From Rubrobacter sp. (GTDB lineage: Bacteria > Actinomycetota > Rubrobacteria > Rubrobacterales > Rubrobacteraceae): 33,200 bases of DNA. The translations under genes and the position numbers were made by a program. Under the pieces are notes generated by a model, which was not told where the DNA came from, did not search any database, and worked only from the letters and a program-made list of their open reading frames with translations. Position 1 is the stretch's first letter. Each line of letters starts with the position of its first letter. This document shows, piece after piece, positions 698 to 17,798 of the stretch. The DNA is taken from positions 1 to 33,200 of the forward strand of contig JACCTS010000380.1 in assembly GCA_013812245.1 (NCBI GenBank). The letters are read 5' to 3'.

Positions 698-981
698 TTT
701 GCCGCTTTTCGCCTGGCCACTCTACGTCTCACTTTCAACCTTATACAAGCTCACCGCGTGATACTACACGAACGACGATTTCATCGTTATCTACCCTCTG
801 AACAGATGGAACCACGTCTTCTCGCCCGTCGCCTGCGGGCACGGGCCCGCGCCGGTCACAACCGGACCCACGCGGATTACGAGATCTTCGTCTCCATCAA
901 GGACCGATAACGTGCGTCCGGCGGTATAGGTCAGCAACCGAGGTGGCCGCGGCTTCGGCGCGGGAAGGGCTCTCCGGGCGG

Positions 982-987
982 TATACT
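982..987 (+). promoter_or_regulatory. -10 hexamer TATACT upstream of glycosyltransferase gene
   Basis: TATACT at 982-987, GGAGG at about 996-1000, ATG at 1006. Confidence 0.4.
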
Positions 988-1005
988 TCTCCCTCGGAGG
1001 ACCCC

Positions 1006-2400
1006 ATGCGGATCATGAAAAACACTCTGAAGAGGCTTCTAAGCTTCAAATCCTTACGGCGGTCTTTGAGCTTCGTGGTTCTGGCGTTCGCGGACGGGCT
1101 CTCGTTGGTACTCGGTCTGTCCGGCGCGGCCTGGTTTTTGGGTGGTGATAGGTTGGACCCGGTCCTGGACCTCGCGCCATTGTTGCTGGCGGCCTGGATC
1201 TCCCTCTTCGCCGCATTCCGCCTCTACGATCGGGCACCGGTCCGCCGCAACCCGGGGGCGTTGATCGGGGCCGCCTTCTGCTGGGCTGGCCTTGCGGCGG
1301 TCGGGGCGGCGGTCTATCCGGGGACCGGGCTCGGGCTCGGCGAGATACTGCCGGCCGCCTTCCTCGCCCTGTCGTGCGCCGCCGCGATCAGGGTCCTCTA
1401 CGAGCAAATCATAGGCAGGATCTACCGCCGCGGCTTCGGCCAGTCGCCCGTCTTGGTGGTGGGTAGTGAAAGGGATCGGGCGCGGGTGCGCAGGACGATG
1501 GAAGACGCGCCGGGCGCCTACGCCCTGGCGGGCGAGGTTGACTTGGGAGACAAGGACCCCGATGCGCTACTAGCCGCGCTGCGAAGGGCGCTGGACCACA
1601 CGGATGCCCGGGGCGTCGTCCTCGTCGGGGCCGAGCGACTGCCCGACGACTACCTCCTGGAGTTGCTACGCTCCGTGCGGCTGCGCGGGGTGCCGCTCAG
1701 GGTCGTGCCAGGGGCCCTCGCCCTGATGCGGGGCCGCATAATCCTCTCCGAGGGTCTGGGCCTGCCGCTGCTCGAGGTCGGCTATCCCCGGCTGGACAAC
1801 ACCCAGAGGGCCCTCAAGCGGACCCTCGACATGGTGGTCTCCGTAGTTGGTCTCGTGCTCCTCTCCGTACCCTTCCTGGCCGTGGCCTTCGCCATCAGGC
1901 TCGATTCGCCTGGGCCGGTGTTCTTCCGCCAGAAACGGGTGGGAGCAGACGAGAGAATCTTCGTCTGCTTGATGTTCCGCTCAATGCAGGAGGAGGCGGA
2001 GCGGCACCTGCGGGAACTGGAAGCGTTGAACGAGGTCGAGGGGCCGATCTTCAAGATGAGGAACGACCCGCGCGTGACCAGGGTCGGGCGCTTTTTGCGG
2101 CGCTGGAGCATAGACGAGTTGCCTCAACTCGTGAACGTGCTCAAGGGTGAGATGAGCCTGGTCGGCCCCAGGCCCCTGCCGGTACGAGACTTCTTGCGGA
2201 TGGAGGAGGCCCACAAGAGACGGCTCGGGACCATCCCCGGGATGACGGGCTACTGGCAGACCAGCGGGCGCAGCGACCTCTCTTTTGAAGAGATGGTGCG
2301 CCTGGATCTCTACTACATGGAGAACTGGTCGCTCTCCTTTGACGTGAAGATCATACTCCGAACCCTGGGAGCAGTGCTGCGCCGCGAAGGCGCATATTAG
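1006..2400 (+). CDS. exopolysaccharide biosynthesis polyprenyl glycosylphosphotransferase (bacterial sugar transferase)
   Basis: C-terminal sugar transferase motifs (KRTLDMVVSVVGL, DSPGPVFFRQKRVG, LRRWSIDELPQLVNVLKGEMSLVGPRP), N-terminal TM segments. Start moved to ATG 1006 because GGAGG precedes it; the track start 943 lies upstream of the -10. Confidence 0.9.
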   Translation: MRIMKNTLKRLLSFKSLRRSLSFVVLAFADGLSLVLGLSGAAWFLGGDRLDPVLDLAPLLLAAWISLFAAFRLYDRAPVRRNPGALIGAAFCWAGLAAVGAAVYPGTGLGLGEILPAAFLALSCAAAIRVLYEQIIGRIYRRGFGQSPVLVVGSERDRARVRRTMEDAPGAYALAGEVDLGDKDPDALLAALRRALDHTDARGVVLVGAERLPDDYLLELLRSVRLRGVPLRVVPGALALMRGRIILSEGLGLPLLEVGYPRLDNTQRALKRTLDMVVSVVGLVLLSVPFLAVAFAIRLDSPGPVFFRQKRVGADERIFVCLMFRSMQEEAERHLRELEALNEVEGPIFKMRNDPRVTRVGRFLRRWSIDELPQLVNVLKGEMSLVGPRPLPVRDFLRMEEAHKRRLGTIPGMTGYWQTSGRSDLSFEEMVRLDLYYMENWSLSFDVKIILRTLGAVLRREGAY

Positions 2401-2402
2401 AA

Positions 2403-2552
2403 TAGCCTGGCGGCACGTCAGCCTGTCGACAATTTCAGCAAGAGAACCGGGGAGGAAAGCCCGGGCCCGCTATGTCTCCGGCCTGGGACGCGGTTGCTTT
2501 TGCGCGGCGTGGATGCGACGATCTAAACGGTAGCTGACAGGCTGACAGGCTA
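2403..2552. other. intergenic imperfect inverted-repeat element (MITE-like or structured RNA)
   Basis: TAGCCT(2403-2408)-8 nt-GTCAGCCTGTC(2417-2427) is complementary to GACAGGCTGAC(2536-2546)-AGGCTA(2547-2552); internal hairpin CCGGG..CCCGG. Confidence 0.55.
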
Positions 2553-2566
2553 CAGAGGGAGAGGTT

Positions 2567-3938
2567 TTGGCCGAGAGTTTCAGCGTCGGAGTGGTGGGGT
2601 CCGGGTACGTCGGGCTAGTGACGGGAGCCTGCCTGGCGCATGTCGGGCACAGGGTCGCGTGCGTGGACAAGAACGAGGCTCTGGTCGAGCAACTCCGGGA
2701 GGGCCGGATGCCGATCTTCGAGCCTGGCCTGGAGGAGTTCGTCTCGCGCGGCGTGCGGAGTAGCAGGCTCTCGTTTACTACGAGCCTGCCGGAGATCGTG
2801 CGCGACTCGGACGTGGTCTTTATCGCCGTGGACACCCCGCAGGGCGACGATGGCTCGGCGGACCTCGGGAGCGTCGCCGCCGTCGCCCGCAGCATAGGCG
2901 GCGCGCTGGCCGGGACACACCGCGAGCACCCGCTCGTCGTGGTCAACAAGAGCACCGTCCCCGTCGGCTCCGGTGACTACGTTTCGATGCTCGTCCGTGA
3001 AGGTGCCGCCGAAAACGATGGGGTGGACGTAGACTACCGCGTCGTATCCAACCCGGAGTTTTTGCGGGAGGGGAGCGCGGTCTACGATTCGCTGTTCCCA
3101 GACAGGATCGTGCTCGGCTCCGAGGGGCGCGACGCGCTGGACACCATGAGGGAACTGTACAAGCCCATAATCGAGCAAACCTTTCCGACGGAGATGGACC
3201 CGAGGCCGCGGGCGGCGGTGCCGTTCGTCACCACGGACCTGGCGAGCGCCGAGATGATCAAATACGCCGCCAACGCCTTCCTTGCCACCAAGATCAGCTT
3301 TATCAACGAGATCGCCAACGTCTGCGAGCTTGTCGGCGCGGACGTCTCCAGCGTGGCGACGGGCATAGGGCTGGACGCCCGCATCGGCAGCCGCTTCCTG
3401 AACCCCGGCATCGGATGGGGTGGCTCTTGCTTCCCTAAGGACGTCTCGGCGCTGCGTTCCATAGCCCGCGAGTACGATTACGAGCCGACGCTCCTGGATT
3501 CCGTGGTCTCAGTGAACGAGCGTCAGCGGCGGCGTGTGATCTCCAAGCTCCAGCACGACCTGCACACCCTGAAGGGCAAGCGCATCGCCCTGCTCGGCCT
3601 CGCCTTCAAGCCGAATACCGATGACATCAGGGAGGCCCCGAGCCTGGAGATCGCCCGTGCCCTCGTCTCCCGCGGCGTGCGGGTGATGGGCTACGACCCC
3701 GTGGCCGGAAAGGCCGCCGCCCGTCGTCTCCCCGATCTCAAGGTCGTATTCGACCCCTACGAGGCGCTCTCCGGGGCGCACGCGGCGGTCGTGGTCACGG
3801 AGTGGGAGGACATCCGGGGCCTCGACCTGAAGGAGGCTTCGTCCCTCATGGAGCCACCGAAGCTCCTGGTGGACGGCCGCAACGCCCTGGACGCGACCCT
3901 GGCCCGCGACGCCGGGCTGCTCTATAGGGGCTTCGGGC

Positions 3939-3946
<8 letters not shown>
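2567..3946 (+). CDS. UDP-glucose/GDP-mannose dehydrogenase family protein (UDP-glucose 6-dehydrogenase)
   Basis: [22 protein letters not shown] Rossmann start; [18 protein letters not shown] catalytic Cys motif; [16 protein letters not shown]. Confidence 0.93.
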
Positions 3947-4906
<960 letters not shown>

Positions 4907-4910
<4 letters not shown>

Positions 4911-5824
4911 GGGTTCTTGTCACCGGCGGGGCTGGCTTCATCGGGTCGCACGTGGCAGATCACCTTCTGGAGCGCGGTTACGAGGTTGCCGTCGCGGACA
5001 ACCTCTCGACCGGGAAGCGGGAGAATGTCCCCGAGGGCGCCAGCTTCTACGAAGCTGACGTCCGTTCCGGGCTCGATGAAGTTTTCGAGGAGTTCAGGCC
5101 GGAGGTAGTCGCGCATCAGGCGGCCCAGATGGACGTGCGCCGCAGCGTCCGTGAGCCGGATTTCGACGCGGACGTGAACGTGATCGGCACCGTCCGGCTG
5201 TTGCAGAACTGCGTGGAGCACGAGGTCCAGAAGTTCGTCTTTGCTTCGACAGGCGGGGCGGTCTACGGCGAGCAGCGGGAGTTTCCGGCCCCGGAGGACC
5301 ATCCGCAGTACCCCGTTTCTCCTTACGGCGTCTCCAAGCTGGCCGGGGAACGGTACCTGCATTACTACGAGACACAGTACGGGCTTCCGTACGTGGCCCT
5401 GCGCTACGCCAACGTGTACGGCCCGCGCCAGGACCCGCACGGTGAGGCCGGGGTGGTGGCCATCTTCTGCGGCAACCTGCGCGATGGCCGGACCTCGACC
5501 ATCAACGGCACAGGAGAGCAGACCCGCGACTACGTGTACGTTGGTGACGTGGCCCGCGCCAACGTCCTCGCCCTGGAGAGTGAGACCCCTCCCGGCGCAT
5601 ACAACGTGGGTACTGGCGTAGAGACGGATGTGAACCGTCTCTACGAGTTGCTGCTGGAAGCGTCCGGCAAGGATTTGCCTCCGGAGCACGGTCCCGGCAA
5701 GCCGGGCGAGCAGAGCCGCAGCAGCGTGTCTCCGGCGCGTGCCGGAGATACTTTCGGATGGCGGCCTGAGATGGACCTCGCGGCGGGGTTGCGGGAGACA
5801 CTACGCTTCTTCGGCGCCGCGTAG
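4907..5824 (+). CDS. NAD-dependent epimerase/dehydratase, UDP-glucose 4-epimerase-like
   Basis: [68 protein letters not shown]. Overlaps upstream stop (ATGA). Confidence 0.85.
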
Positions 5825-5941
5825 GAACACGGAGTATGCGCCCCGTCGGGGTTGATGCCTTGCCAAAGGGCTCTGCAGGGGTTAAATACGAGTATATTGC
5901 GTTACGCAAGAAACCGGTGAATTTTTCCGAGAAGGAGCAGG

Positions 5942-7405
5942 TTGCGCCGCACGCTGACGCGCAAAGAATTTCTGAAGGCGGCCGGAGCAGGGACCGCGGG
6001 GACCGCCCTTCTGGGTTCTTCGGCCGCCAGTTCGGGCTGCGCCTATCTTCCTAGTGGAGGGTCGAGAATGAACGTGATAATGGTGATCCTGGACAGCTTC
6101 CGCAAGGACCACATCGGGGTCTACGGGAACGATTGGATCCGGACCCCCAACCTCGACGCCCTGGCGGGGGAGAGCCTGCGCTTCACGCGGGCGTACCCCG
6201 AGTCCATCCCCACCATCCCCGCCCGCCGGGCCATCTATACCGGCATAAGGACCTGGCCTTTCAGGAACTGGATCCCCCAGAAGGGAGAGACCTACTTCCC
6301 GGCTGGCTGGCAGCGCATCCCCGAAGATGAGACCACCCTCACGGAGATCCTAAAACCCGAGGGCTACAACACGGTCCTCATCACCGACACCCAGCACGAG
6401 TTCAAGGCTTCGATGAACTTTCAGCGCGGTTTCGACGTCTTCGACTTCATCCGGGGTCAGGAACGTGATCACTACCGCTCCACGCTCTCCATCCCCGAGA
6501 GCCAGGTTAACCGCTACACGGTCCCAGGCAACGATGGAAGCATGCGCGACAAGGTCCGGCAGTACCTCGCCAACACCCGCCACCGCAAGGGAGAAGAGGA
6601 TTACTTTGCGCCGCAGGTCTTCACCCGCTCCGGAGAGTTCCTGGAACTGGCCCGCGAGGCCCAGCCGTTCTTCCTCGTGGTGGATTCTTTCGATCCCCAC
6701 GAGCCCTGGGACCCGCCCGAGGAGTACGTCAACATGTACAGCGACGGCTACGACGGCCCCGAGCCCATCGTCCCCAACTACAGCAAGGACGATTGGATCA
6801 CCGACCGCGAGCTCGAAAGGATGCGCGCCCTCTACGCCGCGGAGGTCACGATGGTGGACCGCTGGCTGGGAAATTTCCTGAACCGGGTGGACGATCTCGG
6901 GCTCGCGGAGAACACTCTGCTCATGGTCCTCTCCGACCACGGCGTCGCCCTCGGAGAGCACGGCTACACCGGCAAGCCTTTCCCGGCTCTCTATCCTGAG
7001 CTCACGGACGTTCCATTCTTCATCCGCCATCCCGAGGGCAGGGGCGCGGGAGAGACCAGCGACTACTTCGCCTCCATCCACGACGTAGCCCCAACGGTGC
7101 TCGGCGCCCTGGGCATCGAGCAGCCGGGTGCGATGAACGGGCAGGATCTCACCCCGATCCTCGACGGCGGAGCGCCGGAAGAGGAGCGCCCCCACTTTAC
7201 TTTAGGCTACGATGATTATGTCTGGGCCCGCGACGAGCAATACATAATGTCCGCCCGCAACGACCGGACGGAGGCGAATCTCTTTGATCTGGAGGCCGAC
7301 CCGGACATGAAGAACAACATCGCCGGCGGCAATCCCGACATCGTAAAGCGCATGTTCGAGGACTACGTGCTTGCGGATGCGGGGGGTCCTCTGCCAAAGT
7401 ATTGA
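5942..7405 (+). CDS. sulfatase/alkaline phosphatase superfamily hydrolase, predicted Tat-exported lipoprotein
   Basis: N-terminal RRTLTRKEFLKAAGAGTAGTALLGSSAASSGC (Tat-like and lipobox-like); MVILDSFRKDHIGVYG; SDHGVALGEHGYTGK. TTG start with upstream AAGGAG. Confidence 0.8.
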   Translation: MRRTLTRKEFLKAAGAGTAGTALLGSSAASSGCAYLPSGGSRMNVIMVILDSFRKDHIGVYGNDWIRTPNLDALAGESLRFTRAYPESIPTIPARRAIYTGIRTWPFRNWIPQKGETYFPAGWQRIPEDETTLTEILKPEGYNTVLITDTQHEFKASMNFQRGFDVFDFIRGQERDHYRSTLSIPESQVNRYTVPGNDGSMRDKVRQYLANTRHRKGEEDYFAPQVFTRSGEFLELAREAQPFFLVVDSFDPHEPWDPPEEYVNMYSDGYDGPEPIVPNYSKDDWITDRELERMRALYAAEVTMVDRWLGNFLNRVDDLGLAENTLLMVLSDHGVALGEHGYTGKPFPALYPELTDVPFFIRHPEGRGAGETSDYFASIHDVAPTVLGALGIEQPGAMNGQDLTPILDGGAPEEERPHFTLGYDDYVWARDEQYIMSARNDRTEANLFDLEADPDMKNNIAGGNPDIVKRMFEDYVLADAGGPLPKY

Positions 7406-7449
7406 GTTGGTAAGACGCACGGTTCAGGGATAAGCACACGGGAGAGGCA

Positions 7450-8076
7450 TTGCGCGGTCTGATTCGGTTCCTCATAAGGTGGGTCGGGCTGCTGTGCGTG
7501 CCCGGCGGCGCGCTGTGGGCGCTCGCGCCCCTGGGTGTCCATCTCTCCGACCTCAAGTTCAAGACCCCCGATGTGTTCTGGAAGCTCTTTCCCTCGGCCC
7601 CGCTGCTACTTCTGGTGGGCCTGATCGGGCTGCAGCTCCGGCAATCAGGCCGCTCCGGCTGGCTGGAGAAAATCGGATTTTTCGCGGCGGCCGTGGGGCT
7701 CGTGCTGATCATCATGGGCGACGTGGGCCTGTACTGGCTCCGGCTGGACAACATCTACATCATGACGGCCCCCGCCTGGAGGACCTTCCGGCTGGGGCTC
7801 CTTCTGCTGGCCGCGGGCTCGATGCTCTTCGGGATCTTTGCCCCGAAGGATGGCGCTTTGCCGACCTGGGGATTGTTGCCGTTCGTGATCGGGGGCCTAT
7901 GCGGCCTGATCTCCTTCCTCCACGACTTCGGGACGTCCGGGGCGGTGCTGTGGGCGATCTTCGGCGCCGGCTGGGTCTGGCTGGGTCTCTCCCTGCTAAT
8001 CCACGGTCTCGTGTCCTTCTGGCGCAAAAAGCGCGCTTCTACGCGATCCTCGCCTCCCGCGCCAAAACCTCTATAA
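7450..8076 (+). CDS. multi-pass membrane protein of unknown function
   Basis: Several hydrophobic segments; TTG start; lies inside the polysaccharide gene cluster. Confidence 0.6.
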   Translation: MRGLIRFLIRWVGLLCVPGGALWALAPLGVHLSDLKFKTPDVFWKLFPSAPLLLLVGLIGLQLRQSGRSGWLEKIGFFAAAVGLVLIIMGDVGLYWLRLDNIYIMTAPAWRTFRLGLLLLAAGSMLFGIFAPKDGALPTWGLLPFVIGGLCGLISFLHDFGTSGAVLWAIFGAGWVWLGLSLLIHGLVSFWRKKRASTRSSPPAPKPL

Positions 8077-8085
8077 TCTAGCGCC

Positions 8086-9798
8086 GTGACTATGGAAGGA
8101 AACTCGCCGCGCGGTGAGGCCGTGCCCGACGGAGAGCCCGGAACGGGGGCCGAAAGACACGCCCGGCCGCCCGAAGCGGCAGGCGACGCTCCCTCCGGGG
8201 TACCGGGCGTCGCCGAGACCGACTCGCTCGGTGAAGACAAGGACGACTCCTACGTTGCGCGGGTAGCGAGGGGAGCCGGCATCAGCACGGCGGGGCAGGG
8301 GATCGGGCGCGTGCTCGGCTACTTCTCTCTGCTCGCCATGGCACGTCTGTTCGGGCCCACGGCACAAGGCTTCTACCAGGCGGGTGTCGCCATTTTGAAT
8401 GGCGCGCAGATCCTGTCGCGCTTCGGCATGGAGAACGGTGTTGTGCGCTACGTAGCCCATTACCGGGCGCAGGAGGACACCGCAAGAGTCAAGGGGACGA
8501 TAATCCAGGCTGTTGCGATCACCTTCGCCTTGAGTATGGTCATTTCCGCCATCATGTTCCTCGGGGCAAGCTTGGAGATCGTGCAAAACTGGGAGTTCCG
8601 GGACTACTCCATGGCGCCGGTGCTCCGGGCTTTCGCGGTCGTGTTGCCGTTCTTCGTGTTCATGATGATGCTACTCTGGGCTACGCAGGGGTTCCAGACG
8701 GTCACCTACGCGAGCTACGTACAGCAGATAATCCGCCCCGCGTTGTTCCTGGGATTCCTCTTCGTCTTCTACCTGCTAGGTACGGAGACCGTGGGTATCA
8801 TAGCGGCCTACGGCATCTCTATGGCGTTGGGCTCCGCGGTCGCCGTCTACTATCTGTGGAAGTTGTTTCCGGAGATCTTCGACCGCAGCGTTCCGGCGAA
8901 GTTCGAGACCAAGGCGCTGTTCAACGTCTCGGTGCCGATGAGCATTACCACCGGCGCGCAGTACCTCAACACGTGGTCGGCGCTGCTTGTGCTTGGGATC
9001 TTCGCGATCGGGCCCCCCGTGGCGGTCTTCGGCACCGCCGCCCGCACGGCTACGCTCTCGACCATCGTGCGCTTCGCTTTCTCCGGCATCTTCTCTCCGA
9101 TGATCTCCAGTTTTTACTCACGCGGGGAGATGGGTGACCTCGACCGGCTCTACAAAGACATATCTCGCTGGATCTTTACGGGCGCGTTCGGCATCTTTTT
9201 GCTGCTCGCGTTGCTCTCCTACGAGGTCCTGGCCGTCTTCGGCGAGAAGTACATCGAAGGCATCGCGGCCCTGATCATCGTGGCCGTGGCGCAGCTCTAC
9301 AGTTCCGCTGTCGGCCCGACGCCGCGGATGCTTGCGATGACCGAGAACCAGAACGTCGTCATGATCGCCACCGCTATCGCGGCCATGATCGGTCTCTCCG
9401 TCAGCACCGTCCTAATCGTGACCGCGCCTACTTCTGAAGGCAAGATCCTCGGCGCCGCCATCGGAATGGCCTCTGGCATCGTCATAGAGAACACGGCCAC
9501 CCTACTGGCCGTCCGACGACGCCTCGGCTTCTGGCCGTATAACCTCGCGTGGCTGAAGCCGCTGCTTGCCGGCCTGGCCGCCGCCGCGCTGGCCTTCCTG
9601 GTAAACCTGTTTCTGCCTATGCCGGTGCTCATCACCATAGCGGTCGTCGGGGCGATCTTTGGGACAGGTTACCTGGCACTGCTATTCTTATTCGGGCTCT
9701 CTGAGACGGACAAGGAGTTCCTCGGAGCCTTCTGGAACGTCGCGCAGCGCGTACTGCGGCGAGGTCGGCGTTCCGGTGGGGAAGAGGGCCGTGGATAA
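8086..9798 (+). CDS. oligosaccharide flippase family protein (Wzx/MurJ-like)
   Basis: About 12 hydrophobic segments; N-terminal GAGISTAGQGIGRVLGYFSLLAMARLFGPTAQGFYQAG is typical of polysaccharide exporters. Confidence 0.85.
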   Translation: MTMEGNSPRGEAVPDGEPGTGAERHARPPEAAGDAPSGVPGVAETDSLGEDKDDSYVARVARGAGISTAGQGIGRVLGYFSLLAMARLFGPTAQGFYQAGVAILNGAQILSRFGMENGVVRYVAHYRAQEDTARVKGTIIQAVAITFALSMVISAIMFLGASLEIVQNWEFRDYSMAPVLRAFAVVLPFFVFMMMLLWATQGFQTVTYASYVQQIIRPALFLGFLFVFYLLGTETVGIIAAYGISMALGSAVAVYYLWKLFPEIFDRSVPAKFETKALFNVSVPMSITTGAQYLNTWSALLVLGIFAIGPPVAVFGTAARTATLSTIVRFAFSGIFSPMISSFYSRGEMGDLDRLYKDISRWIFTGAFGIFLLLALLSYEVLAVFGEKYIEGIAALIIVAVAQLYSSAVGPTPRMLAMTENQNVVMIATAIAAMIGLSVSTVLIVTAPTSEGKILGAAIGMASGIVIENTATLLAVRRRLGFWPYNLAWLKPLLAGLAAAALAFLVNLFLPMPVLITIAVVGAIFGTGYLALLFLFGLSETDKEFLGAFWNVAQRVLRRGRRSGGEEGRG

Positions 9799-10732
9799 CG
9801 CGCCCACGAAGGTCCTTTACATCGCCGGTTTCGGACGGAGCGGGAGTACGATCCTCTCGAACAGCCTGGGCCAGGTCGAGGGCTTCTTCTCGGCGGGAGA
9901 GTTGAACTTCATCTGGAAGCACGCCCTGATCGAAAATCGCCTCTGCGGTTGTAGACGCCCTTCCCGCGAGTGCCCTGTCTGGCGAAGCGTCTTCGACGAT
10001 GCGTTCGGCGGCATGGATAAGGTGGACGCCCGCGAGATGATGCGCCTCCAGGCTTCCGGCGCCCGCACCCGCCACATCCCCCGGATGCTGACGTCCCGCG
10101 GCCGGGAAAACCTCAAGGGCCGCATGGGCAAGTTCCTCGACGCTTCGGCCCGGCTCTACGAGGCCATATTGTCCGTCACCGGGAGCCGGGTCATCGTGGA
10201 CTCCTCCAAGGAACCCGCCTACGGCTACGCGATGAGCATGGTCCCCGAACTTGACGTGCGGGTGCTGCACCTGATCCGGGACCCCAGGGCCGCCGCCTAC
10301 TCGTGGTTGAAGAAGAAAGCCCAGCCCGACAGCGAGGACCGCGAGTTCATGCACAGGAAGAGCGCCCTCGACAGCGCGGTTCTCTGGGACGCCTGGAACG
10401 CCTCCATCGAAGCCCTGTGGCACGGCTCCGGCCAAAATCGCCGCCTGCGCTACGAGGACTTCATCGCGGATCCAAAAGACAGCTTCGGGCGGATACTGGA
10501 CCTGCTCGGCGAACCAGACGCGGGTTTGCCGCTGGTGGGTGAGCGGGAGGTCAAACTCGGGATCAGCCACACCGTCTCGGGTAACCCCAACCGCTTCGAC
10601 ACGGGCTCCGTTGCGCTTCGGCAGGACGACGAGTGGACGAAAGAAATGAAGCCCAGCGACAGGAATCTCGTCACGGGGCTGACGTTTCCCCTGCTAAAGC
10701 GCTACGATTACCCGCTGACCCCGAAACACTGA
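9791..10732 (+). CDS. sulfotransferase family protein
   Basis: VLYIAGFGRSGSTILSNSLGQ (5' PAPS loop), RVLHLIRDPRAAAYSW (3' phosphate). Start set to GTG 9791, which follows GAAGAGG and overlaps the flippase stop; the longer track ORF (9659) is an extension inside the flippase gene. Confidence 0.85.
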   Translation: MDNAPTKVLYIAGFGRSGSTILSNSLGQVEGFFSAGELNFIWKHALIENRLCGCRRPSRECPVWRSVFDDAFGGMDKVDAREMMRLQASGARTRHIPRMLTSRGRENLKGRMGKFLDASARLYEAILSVTGSRVIVDSSKEPAYGYAMSMVPELDVRVLHLIRDPRAAAYSWLKKKAQPDSEDREFMHRKSALDSAVLWDAWNASIEALWHGSGQNRRLRYEDFIADPKDSFGRILDLLGEPDAGLPLVGEREVKLGISHTVSGNPNRFDTGSVALRQDDEWTKEMKPSDRNLVTGLTFPLLKRYDYPLTPKH

Positions 10733-15326: not shown

Positions 15327-15411
15327 GGGGGTATGGCAGAGCGGACGAATGCGCTGGTCTTGAAAACCAGAGGCGGTAAGACGCCCGTAGGTTCGAATCC
15401 TACTGCCCCCG
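15327..15411 (+). tRNA. tRNA-Ser(UGA)
   Basis: Acceptor GGGGGTA/TGCCCCC, anticodon loop CTTGAAA with anticodon TGA, long variable arm, T-arm GTAGGTTCGAATCCTAC. Confidence 0.95.
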
Positions 15412-15463
15412 CTTCCCACCACGAACCGGAACCAGAGAAACATGCTCCATTTATATTATTTCT

Positions 15464-15514
15464 GTTAAAAATCGTTAAGATATTGGAGACTTTTGCGTTT
15501 CGGATATGTACACT
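15464..15514 (+). promoter_or_regulatory. predicted activator-type promoter: GTTAA-N5-GTTAA (15464-15478), 30 nt, -10 TACACT (15509-15514)
   Basis: Same architecture and spacing as 16139-16189; both have AACTTCT starting 7 nt after the -10. Confidence 0.55.
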
Positions 15515-15585
15515 ACGGGTAACTTCTCACTTTGGAGAAGGAGTGCAGGCCGTTGAAGACGAGTAGATAGAAGGAGGTATCTCTT

Positions 15586-15825
15586 TTGAAGAAGAAGGTA
15601 ATCATTCTGGCTACGGCTGCTCTTCTGGTCATGATGATCCTCGCGCCGGCCGCTCTGGCGCAGGGAACCATGATGGAAGGCAGCATGATGGAAGGCACCA
15701 TGATGACTTCGGGTGGCGAAGCTTCGGACATTCCGGAGAGTGGTGGCCCGGCTATTCTGTTGCCGGCTGCCGCCCTGCTGCTGGGTTCGGGCATCCTGAC
15801 CTTCGCGGTATTGCGGCGCAGGTAG
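15586..15825 (+). CDS. small secreted or cell-surface Met-rich protein (signal peptide, MM repeats, C-terminal TM and RRR tail)
   Basis: TTG start with GAAGGAGG; MKKKVIILATAALLVMMILAPAALAQGTMMEGSMMEGTMMTSG...IPESGGPAILLPAAALLLGSGILTFAVLRRR. Confidence 0.75.
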   Translation: MKKKVIILATAALLVMMILAPAALAQGTMMEGSMMEGTMMTSGGEASDIPESGGPAILLPAAALLLGSGILTFAVLRRR

Positions 15826-15847
15826 CATTAGTCCAACACCGTGAAGC

Positions 15848-15866
15848 TCCGCACGTGGCGTGCGGA
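15848..15866 (+). other. perfect 8-bp hairpin TCCGCACG-TGG-CGTGCGGA downstream of the Met-rich gene
   Basis: Read directly from sequence. Confidence 0.6.
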
Positions 15867-15884
15867 AACCAATACACTATTACC

Positions 15885-15917
15885 GACGGAGGAGAGCCTG
15901 CACTCCTCCGTCTTTCT
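15885..15917 (+). terminator. intrinsic terminator
   Basis: GACGGAGGAG (15885-15894) / CTCCTCCGTC (15903-15912), followed by TTTCT. Confidence 0.8.
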
Positions 15918-16022
15918 AATGCGTTCGGCGGGCAGTGGGATCACGGCTCACGTAGTCAGGCTCCGGCCGATCTACGAAGTGTTTGGCCAAATGCCCATTG
16001 CTGAAGACTGAAAGATAGAAAG

Positions 16023-16095
16023 TGAGCCGCCCAGGACTCGAACCTGGAACCTAGAGATTAAGAGTCTCTTGCTCTGCCAATTGAGCTAGCGGCCC
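16023..16095 (-). tRNA. tRNA-Lys(CUU)
   Basis: Reverse complement: acceptor GGGCCGC/GCGGCTC, anticodon stem AGAGA/TCTCT with loop CTCTTAA, T-arm CCAGGTTCGAGTCCTGG. Confidence 0.95.
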
Positions 16096-16138
16096 ATCCG
16101 CTGAGATTATAACATCGGTACGGGAGGCGTAAGGTCAG

Positions 16139-16189
16139 GTTAAGTTTTGTTAACGAGAGCTTGCGCCAACAGTATCTTGTCTCTATAAT
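16139..16189 (+). promoter_or_regulatory. promoter: GTTAA-N5-GTTAA (16139-16153), -35 TTGCGC (16161-16166), 17-nt spacer, -10 TATAAT (16184-16189)
   Basis: Consensus -10, optimal spacer and an upstream direct repeat shared with 15464-15478. Confidence 0.7.
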
Positions 16190-16195
16190 GTTGGC

Positions 16196-16276
16196 AACTT
16201 CTAGCGGTACCCATCAAGGGGCCGCTAAGGGCCGGAAAAGGGTCTCACCCTTCTGTGAAAACCGGCCCTTTTTCTT
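16196..16276 (+). ncRNA. candidate standalone small RNA ending in an intrinsic terminator
   Basis: Predicted start about 16196; hairpin AGCGG(16203-16207)/CCGCT(16222-16226); terminator AAGGGCCGG(16227-16235)/CCGGCCCTT(16262-16270) enclosing AAGGGT/ACCCTT, then the T-run. Confidence 0.6.
16227..16276 (+). terminator. intrinsic terminator of the candidate small RNA
   Basis: 9-bp perfect stem followed by TTTTTCTT; nested 6-bp hairpin in the loop. Confidence 0.8.
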
Positions 16277-16430: not shown

Positions 16431-17798
16431 CTATCCCACTTCTTCGGCGATGGTAAAGAGCTCTTCGGCGTGGCGTCGCACGGAGGTTGCGAGATCGTTG
16501 GTGGCGGTGACGATGCGGACGCGACGTAGGGAGGCGTAGTAGCGGGTCATATCCTCTTCGGTCATGCCGGAGAGTCCCTGCCAGTCCGTCAGGCTTCGCT
16601 CCCAAGGGAGGGACGCGGGACGGATGAGCCGCAGATCCATGGAGAACTTTTCTTTGCGGGGTAGATCTATGAGTATGTCGAAGGGACCTGCGGTGCCTTT
16701 TCGATACCGGGTGAGGTAGCTGGCCCACGCTTCCTCTACCCGGCGGCGCCAGGAGGCGTCTTCGCGGAGGCGGATTAGCGAGGCGTAGTTCGGGTGACGC
16801 TCGTCGAATTCCAGGGCGCGGTGGTAGGGGCGCCGGTCTGCGAGGCGTCTGGTCAAGGCGGCTGTAGAGCTGTCTGACTGGGCAGATTCCTGGACCACGA
16901 CGAGGGCTCCGGCGTCGTTCTGGCGGGCGAGCTTCTCGGGGCTTACGTTGCCGGCCTGCACGGCGTCCTGAACAGCTCGCAGGAACATCACGGTCGGGAT
17001 GCGCAGCGCGTGGTGTCCATAGACGTTGTAGTGCATTAGATATCGACAAAAGACCAGGGACTGGAGGGAGCCGGCACCTTCTTCGTCCACGGCGAGGATG
17101 GCCCGGTTTTCCTGCCCGACTATATTGAGGGCCTGTATCAGTGCTTCGGTATCCACCATGCCGTAGGGGACTTTCGTGCCGCGGGCGTCACGGAGGAGGT
17201 AGTCGAGGGCGTTGGCGTCCAGCGCGCCGAAAAGTATGTCCCGCACGAGGTGCTCCGTGGGCGTCAGGCTGTGCGGCTCTGCGCCGGGTTCCCGGGCGAC
17301 TAGCCGAAACACGTTGTGGGGTTCGAGATCCCACTCTTTGGAGAGCACCTCGGCCACTTCGGAGTCTTCGATCAGACGCCGGCTCAACTCCTGGGTGGAG
17401 GTCATGCCGGGCAGGGCGATGTCCTCCACCGCCTGCGCGTAAGGGTAGCGGGCAGCGTCGTGGAGGAGGGCGGCCGCCAGGGCGCCCTGCACGTCACGGT
17501 TCTCCAGGTACGCGCCGGAGTCCATGATCTTCTTGAGGGTCAGCCGCGTCAGGTGGTAGACGCCGACGGAGTGGTCGAAGCGGGTGTGCCGGGCGTCGGG
17601 GAAGGCCTGGGCCGCGAAACCGAGTTGCCCCATTCCCTTCAGGCGCGTGAGGGCGCCGCTTTCGAGCAGCATCCGCGCCGCCCGGTCTATAGGGACGTCC
17701 CCCCAGACGCCGTCCCGGATTCTCCTCCCGGAGCCCCCGAAGAACTCCCCTACGGTCCCACTCAAATCCCTCTCCTGGGTGTGTCGGGTCGCGCCCAT
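16431..17798 (-). CDS. HD domain-containing phosphohydrolase (dGTPase/SAMHD1-like family)
   Basis: DARHTRFDHSVGVYHLTRL; ALLHDAARYPYAQ (HD motif); DILFGALDANALDYLLRD. Confidence 0.85.
   Translation of the reverse strand: MGATRHTQERDLSGTVGEFFGGSGRRIRDGVWGDVPIDRAARMLLESGALTRLKGMGQLGFAAQAFPDARHTRFDHSVGVYHLTRLTLKKIMDSGAYLENRDVQGALAAALLHDAARYPYAQAVEDIALPGMTSTQELSRRLIEDSEVAEVLSKEWDLEPHNVFRLVAREPGAEPHSLTPTEHLVRDILFGALDANALDYLLRDARGTKVPYGMVDTEALIQALNIVGQENRAILAVDEEGAGSLQSLVFCRYLMHYNVYGHHALRIPTVMFLRAVQDAVQAGNVSPEKLARQNDAGALVVVQESAQSDSSTAALTRRLADRRPYHRALEFDERHPNYASLIRLREDASWRRRVEEAWASYLTRYRKGTAGPFDILIDLPRKEKFSMDLRLIRPASLPWERSLTDWQGLSGMTEEDMTRYYASLRRVRIVTATNDLATSVRRHAEELFTIAEEVG

Follow-up and report, generated by a model that had tools for sequence, protein, structure and literature searches.

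WalR and MtrA are response regulators that recognise direct repeats in DNA and have cell-wall hydrolases under their control (PMC4168254, PMC6265350, PMC3353115). The WalR box, TGTWAH-N5-TGTWAH, has an 11-bp period (PMC4168254), and the repeats bound by MtrA, which contain GTNAC or GTAAC, have the same period, with RipA/NlpC-type hydrolases among the controlled genes (PMC6265350, PMC3353115). A related arrangement is found in streptococci, where CiaR repeats of the form NTTAAG-N5-TTTAAG, located 10 nt from the -10, drive small terminator-ended RNAs (PMC3091779). The CpxR box of E. coli and Pseudomonas, GTAAA-N4-8-GTAAA, belongs to a regulator with an envelope role (PMC5063474). The locus considered here carries a direct repeat with a 10-bp period at two promoters, one preceding a gene for a small secreted protein and the other a predicted small RNA.

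The window, meaning the whole stretch of DNA that was analysed, is 33,200 nucleotides from Rubrobacter sp. A string check located GTTAA-N5-GTTAA at 15464-15478 (site 1) and 16139-16153 (site 2), with exactly 30 nt separating each repeat from a -10 hexamer, TACACT at 15509-15514 and TATAAT at 16184-16189, and with AACTTCT following 6 nt after each -10 (15521-15527 and 16196-16202). All of the strings quoted for the two sites in a first-pass annotation were found in their places, and the paired repeats are not random, as the two exact matches in the window compare with none in 100 shuffles, and the four in the 3.58-Mb genome (G000, 623 contigs) with none for the reversed control. The features of the locus are as follows.

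15327-15412, + strand: tRNA-Ser(TGA), called by ARAGORN, just 5' of site 1; a neighbour conserved in relatives
15464-15478, + strand: site 1 box, GTTAA-N5-GTTAA, at about -57 to -43 from the predicted start; TTAAAAATNRTTAA in most relatives
15509-15514, + strand: site 1 -10, TACACT, 30 nt past the box, with the weak -35 region GGAGACTT upstream
15523-15540, + strand: 5'UTR hairpin, CTTCTC-ACTTTG-GAGAAG, including most of AACTTCT; its arms co-vary in relatives
15586-15825, + strand: gene for a 79-aa secreted small protein (ORF translation), with homologues in most family genomes
15885-15912, + strand: intrinsic terminator of the small-protein gene, with loop GCCTGCACTCCT complementary to AGGAGTGCAGGC of the 5'UTR (15539-15550)
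16022-16095, - strand: tRNA-Lys(CTT), divergent from the small RNA; a neighbour conserved in relatives
16139-16153, + strand: site 2 box, GTTAAGTTTTGTTAA, at about -57 to -43; retained, or still discernible, at about half of the loci checked for the small RNA
16161-16189, + strand: small-RNA promoter, TTGCGC-N17-TATAAT, read from the sequence; TTGCGC/TTGCAC and TATAAT-like hexamers are conserved in relatives
16196-16275, + strand: small RNA with predicted ends, comprising the P1 hairpin (16202-16227), the P2 terminator stem (16228-16269) and a U run
16431-17798, - strand: gene for an HD-domain protein (Pfam HD and HD_assoc_2), convergent with the small RNA and a neighbour only

Elsewhere in the window, positions 943-10732 hold genes that resemble a surface-polysaccharide cluster, as judged from ORF translations only, with a sugar transferase, a UDP-sugar dehydrogenase, epimerases, a sulfatase, a flippase and a sulfotransferase.

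Across 37 family genomes GTTAA-N5-GTTAA occurs 65 times versus 11 for the reversed control, and in 24 genomes outside the Rubrobacteraceae 21 times versus 24, in totals that count orthologous promoters repeatedly, so that the matches are not independent; among the genomes compared, the excess over the reversed control is found in the Rubrobacteraceae only. Changing the spacer gave 21 matches for N4, 174 for N6 and 19 for N7, each counted over 40 genomes, next to the 65 for N5 over 37. The spacers of the N5 repeats are A/T-rich (66% vs 48-53%), and on sequence grounds the N5 repeats are a class separate from the N6 repeats. A degenerate form of the box, RTTAARWWTYRTTAA, has 63 matches in 40 family genomes versus 2 for the reversed control. 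About two thirds of these lie upstream of the small protein, the small RNA, or genes of the NlpC/P60 or PcsB-like kind. This share comes from a manual tally with domains checked on a sample only; the remainder precede formate dehydrogenase, DUF2339, gamma-glutamyl hydrolase-like and other genes. In several genomes GTTAAGTTTCGTTAA, or a near form of it, lies upstream of formate dehydrogenase-like genes (L039, L041, L047, L058).

The -35 of site 1 is poor, with GAGACT at the same spacing as the -35 of site 2, and is conserved as RGAGACTT. Homologous site 1 promoters have TTAAATTTGTTAAAAATCGTTAAGATAATGGAGACTT in common, followed by TANNNT, and the -10 takes the forms TACACT, TAAACT, TAGACT and TAAAAT across the family, at exactly 30 nt. 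In all 17 scored family promoters exactly 30 nt lie between the end of the TTAA box and TANNNT, the 17 having been chosen by a script on this same box-TANNNT distance with 22 promoters listed, and the other five being one without upstream sequence and those of G003, G012, G015 and G023, which did not fit. Conservation in relatives, which the first-pass annotation had made a test of its proposal, is seen for the site 1 box and its spacing in the Rubrobacteraceae; the site 2 box is conserved less widely, at about half of the loci checked for the small RNA. A stress-sigma promoter, GTTT-N16-GGGTA, was also considered by eye at site 1 and rejected, GGGTA being missing in G009 and G020 and TANNNT at 30 nt being kept.

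The protein encoded downstream of site 1 has a signal peptide, is rich in Met in its middle part and carries a tail of the LPxSG-like kind (IPESGG, a hydrophobic segment and RRR). Its homologues are spread across the family, mostly with a tRNA-Ser gene upstream, and it matches no Pfam or NCBIfam family above cut-off. The two arms of the hairpin in its 5'UTR change jointly in relatives, as in TCCC/GGGA and ATCCTC/GAGGAT (read by eye). Further along the 5'UTR, positions 15539-15550 form a perfect 12-nt complement of the transcript's own terminator loop region, 15896-15907; the core of this pair, TGCAGG/CCTGCA, has both partners present in most relatives and both absent in G003, G015, G020 and G023.

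Site 2 has a proper -35, TTGCGC at 16161-16166, located 17 nt from TATAAT. The small RNA that would start from this promoter is about 80 nt long, ends in a terminator and lies between the divergent tRNA-Lys(CTT) and the convergent HD-domain gene. Its fold is more stable than those of shuffled sequences (z = -3.7), its covariance model match is 93 bits, and 28 distinct copies were collected from the family genomes and named Rubrobacteraceae records, nearly all of those checked adjoining tRNA-Lys. Alignment and pair counts show some compensatory changes in P1 and a nearly invariant P2. A match to the small-RNA pattern in Acetatifactor was set aside as chance. No Rfam family matches the small RNA at the gathering threshold, which tRNAs alone reach, and a literature search found no paper on Rubrobacter small RNAs; judged by its sequence and predicted structure, this is a previously undescribed family, absent from Rfam. 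At most of the small-RNA loci that have the box, it lies 30 nt from the -10, and at that of G019 28 nt. The small-RNA box of G014 (L109) lies 41 nt from the -10 instead of 30, one helical turn further upstream. It was also considered that the small RNA targets the neighbouring small-protein mRNA, and this was rejected, as pairing of the small-RNA leader is no better with cognate (-9.7 kcal/mol) than with non-cognate (-10.4 kcal/mol) mRNAs.

Of the shared architecture described in the first-pass annotation, the box and the 30-nt spacing stand, and the AACTTCT string is not supported as a common element. At site 1 the string is one arm of the 5'UTR hairpin, and at site 2 it is replaced by AATTTCT in a relative of the same genus and by ATCATCCT in many other relatives. 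AACTTCT was therefore dropped as a shared 5'-end element, and its presence at both sites is probably coincidental. In G006, which belongs to a different genus, the series of a -10, 6 nt and AACTTCT recurs in both promoters (L113, L137), although the small RNA there is without the box.

The box is also a feature of hydrolase promoters. Genes for CwlO/PcsB-like NlpC/P60 proteins, which have a PcsB-like coiled coil, have NTTAA-N5-NTTAA upstream in nearly all readable loci, and a GTTAC half-site is conserved 9 bp beyond the box on its upstream side. Domain checks identified NLPC_P60 and CC_PcsB in proteins encoded downstream of boxes. An inverted repeat, GTTTC...GAAAC, and CTTTATTTAAGCC are also common in these hydrolase promoters (L212-L232), downstream of the box. 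In G000, G006, G009, G020, G021 and G024 some 5-8 kb separate the hydrolase gene with the box from the gene for the genome's best MtrA-like regulator. Exonuclease, regulator, kinase and hydrolase genes were read in this order, along with the hydrolase box, in G000, G006 and G024, and the hydrolase and its box were read likewise in G020; in G005 and G018 the link between regulator and hydrolase was not seen.

The candidate regulator, encoded in G000 on contig C356 (L302:1643-2341), has receiver and Trans_reg_C domains, and scores 255 bits against MtrA, 254 against YycF/WalR and 253 against RpaB, below every equivalog cut-off (300 bits for MtrA and 340 for YycF); the MtrA cut-off was passed in none of eight genomes. 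The linked kinase is best matched to WalK, at 283 bits versus a cut-off of 725, and reaches 174 bits versus a cut-off of 450 with an MtrB-type model. No clear box was found in the upstream regions of the regulator's own gene that were inspected, and each genome encodes many further OmpR-family regulators.

Both repeats are probably binding sites of an OmpR/PhoB-family response regulator that controls a cell-wall regulon of the Rubrobacteraceae, similar to those of WalR and MtrA. The first-pass annotation had proposed OmpR/PhoB-type activation from the repeat, and this gains indirect support because site 1 is conserved, because the box is common to hydrolase promoters, and because a WalR/MtrA-like regulator is encoded nearby. 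It is plausible that one regulator acts on both the small-protein and the small-RNA transcripts, and the occurrence of the same tag at hydrolases, small protein and small RNA suggests one sensor system over all of them. The phosphorylated regulator would bind the direct repeat of about 10 bp at -57 to -43 and aid RNA polymerase in starting transcription. At site 1, with its poor -35, the bound regulator would drive expression of the small surface protein, and at site 2, with its good -35, it would boost that of the small structured RNA. The regulator is most likely the WalR/MtrA-like protein encoded with the WalK-like kinase near the box-bearing CwlO/PcsB-like gene. Against this assignment are the sub-cut-off scores, the 11-bp period of the known boxes, the other OmpR regulators, the lack of a clear box at the regulator's own gene, the absence of the box from about half of the loci for the small RNA, and the presence of some boxes before unrelated genes.

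Compared with WalR/WalK (YycF) of the Firmicutes, the Rubrobacteraceae system has in common an OmpR-family candidate, a direct-repeat box, peptidoglycan hydrolase targets and a kinase closest to WalK. It differs in the 10-bp period and GTTAA/ATTAA half-sites of its box, in a regulator and kinase that score under the equivalog cut-offs, and in having a small protein and a small RNA among its putative targets. MtrA/MtrB of the Actinobacteria likewise combines direct repeats and NlpC-type hydrolases with a regulator of the family to which the candidate belongs, but its repeats have an 11-bp period, and the Rubrobacteraceae regulator and kinase again score under the cut-offs. For a small RNA under an OmpR-type regulator, the nearest parallel by analogy is CiaR with the csRNAs of streptococci, where repeats of such a regulator lie upstream of a small terminator-ended RNA. 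The spacing is different, as the CiaR repeats have a period of 11 bp with 10 nt between them and the -10, whereas in the Rubrobacteraceae the period is 10 bp and the gap 30 nt, which places the box on the upstream side of the -35; moreover, the anti-start-codon leader of the csRNAs is not evident in the small RNA of G000. The CpxR box is similar in having five-base repeats in a similar layout and in the envelope role of its regulator, but its repeat sequence differs.

The identity of the regulator is the point at which the WalR/MtrA-like reading meets its most direct competitor. It is possible, if unlikely, that the regulon is real and that its master is another two-component system, the box being bound by an OmpR-family regulator that is not WalR/MtrA-like. 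Many such regulators are present in each genome, the candidate's own gene is without a clear box, and the 10-bp period sets the box apart from those of WalR and MtrA, its layout being similar to the GTAAA-N4-8-GTAAA of CpxR (PMC5063474). In several genera, however, it is the WalR/MtrA-like system that gene neighbourhood links to a hydrolase gene with the box, and the targets match what would be expected for WalR and MtrA.

Other readings dispense with a cell-wall regulator altogether. The repeats occupy -57 to -43, within the UP-element zone, and are A/T-rich in a GC-rich genome, and strong small-RNA and small-protein promoters would gain from contacts with the alpha subunit of RNA polymerase that need no dedicated regulator. 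UP elements, however, do not require an exact sequence with a fixed period, which is what the hydrolase, small-protein and small-RNA promoters have in common; repeats with an N4 or N7 spacer show no enrichment, and six family rRNA operons have A/T tracts upstream but no TTAA repeats, leaving this account improbable. TTAA direct repeats are typical of Pho boxes, and GTTAA repeats do occur near pstS in the Rubrobacteraceae, but those are N6 repeats with an 11-bp period, mostly in the opposite orientation, and the 10-bp box was not found near pstS and marks cell-wall genes instead, making binding by a PhoP/PhoB-type phosphate regulator very doubtful. TTAAC repeats with an 11-bp period that precede pstS-like genes (L159, L165, L174 and G005:C3:189143) themselves look like a Pho box of the family. 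Both the Pho-box and the UP-element readings fit worse than a WalR/MtrA-like regulon. That two unrelated A/T-rich promoters resemble one another by chance might seem to draw strength from AACTTCT, which is not conserved as a common element, and from the absence of the site 2 box in about half of relatives; it is nevertheless disfavoured to the point of being hardly credible because of the conservation data, with site 1 kept family-wide at a fixed spacing, and the shuffled and reversed controls given above also stand against it.

The Rubrobacteraceae are noted for radiation and desiccation tolerance, and the WalR/MtrA-like reading offers this deep-branching actinobacterial family a concrete, testable cell-wall regulon, supplying a candidate regulator, a searchable box and a family-wide small RNA lacking in Rfam. 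With slightly less than even confidence, the proposal can be carried further, to a regulon with a new 10-bp-period box that includes new small RNAs and a Met-rich surface protein, and that would couple remodelling of the wall to RNA-based control. If true, WalR/MtrA control would extend to another lineage, with an altered period of the binding site and with a small RNA in the regulon.
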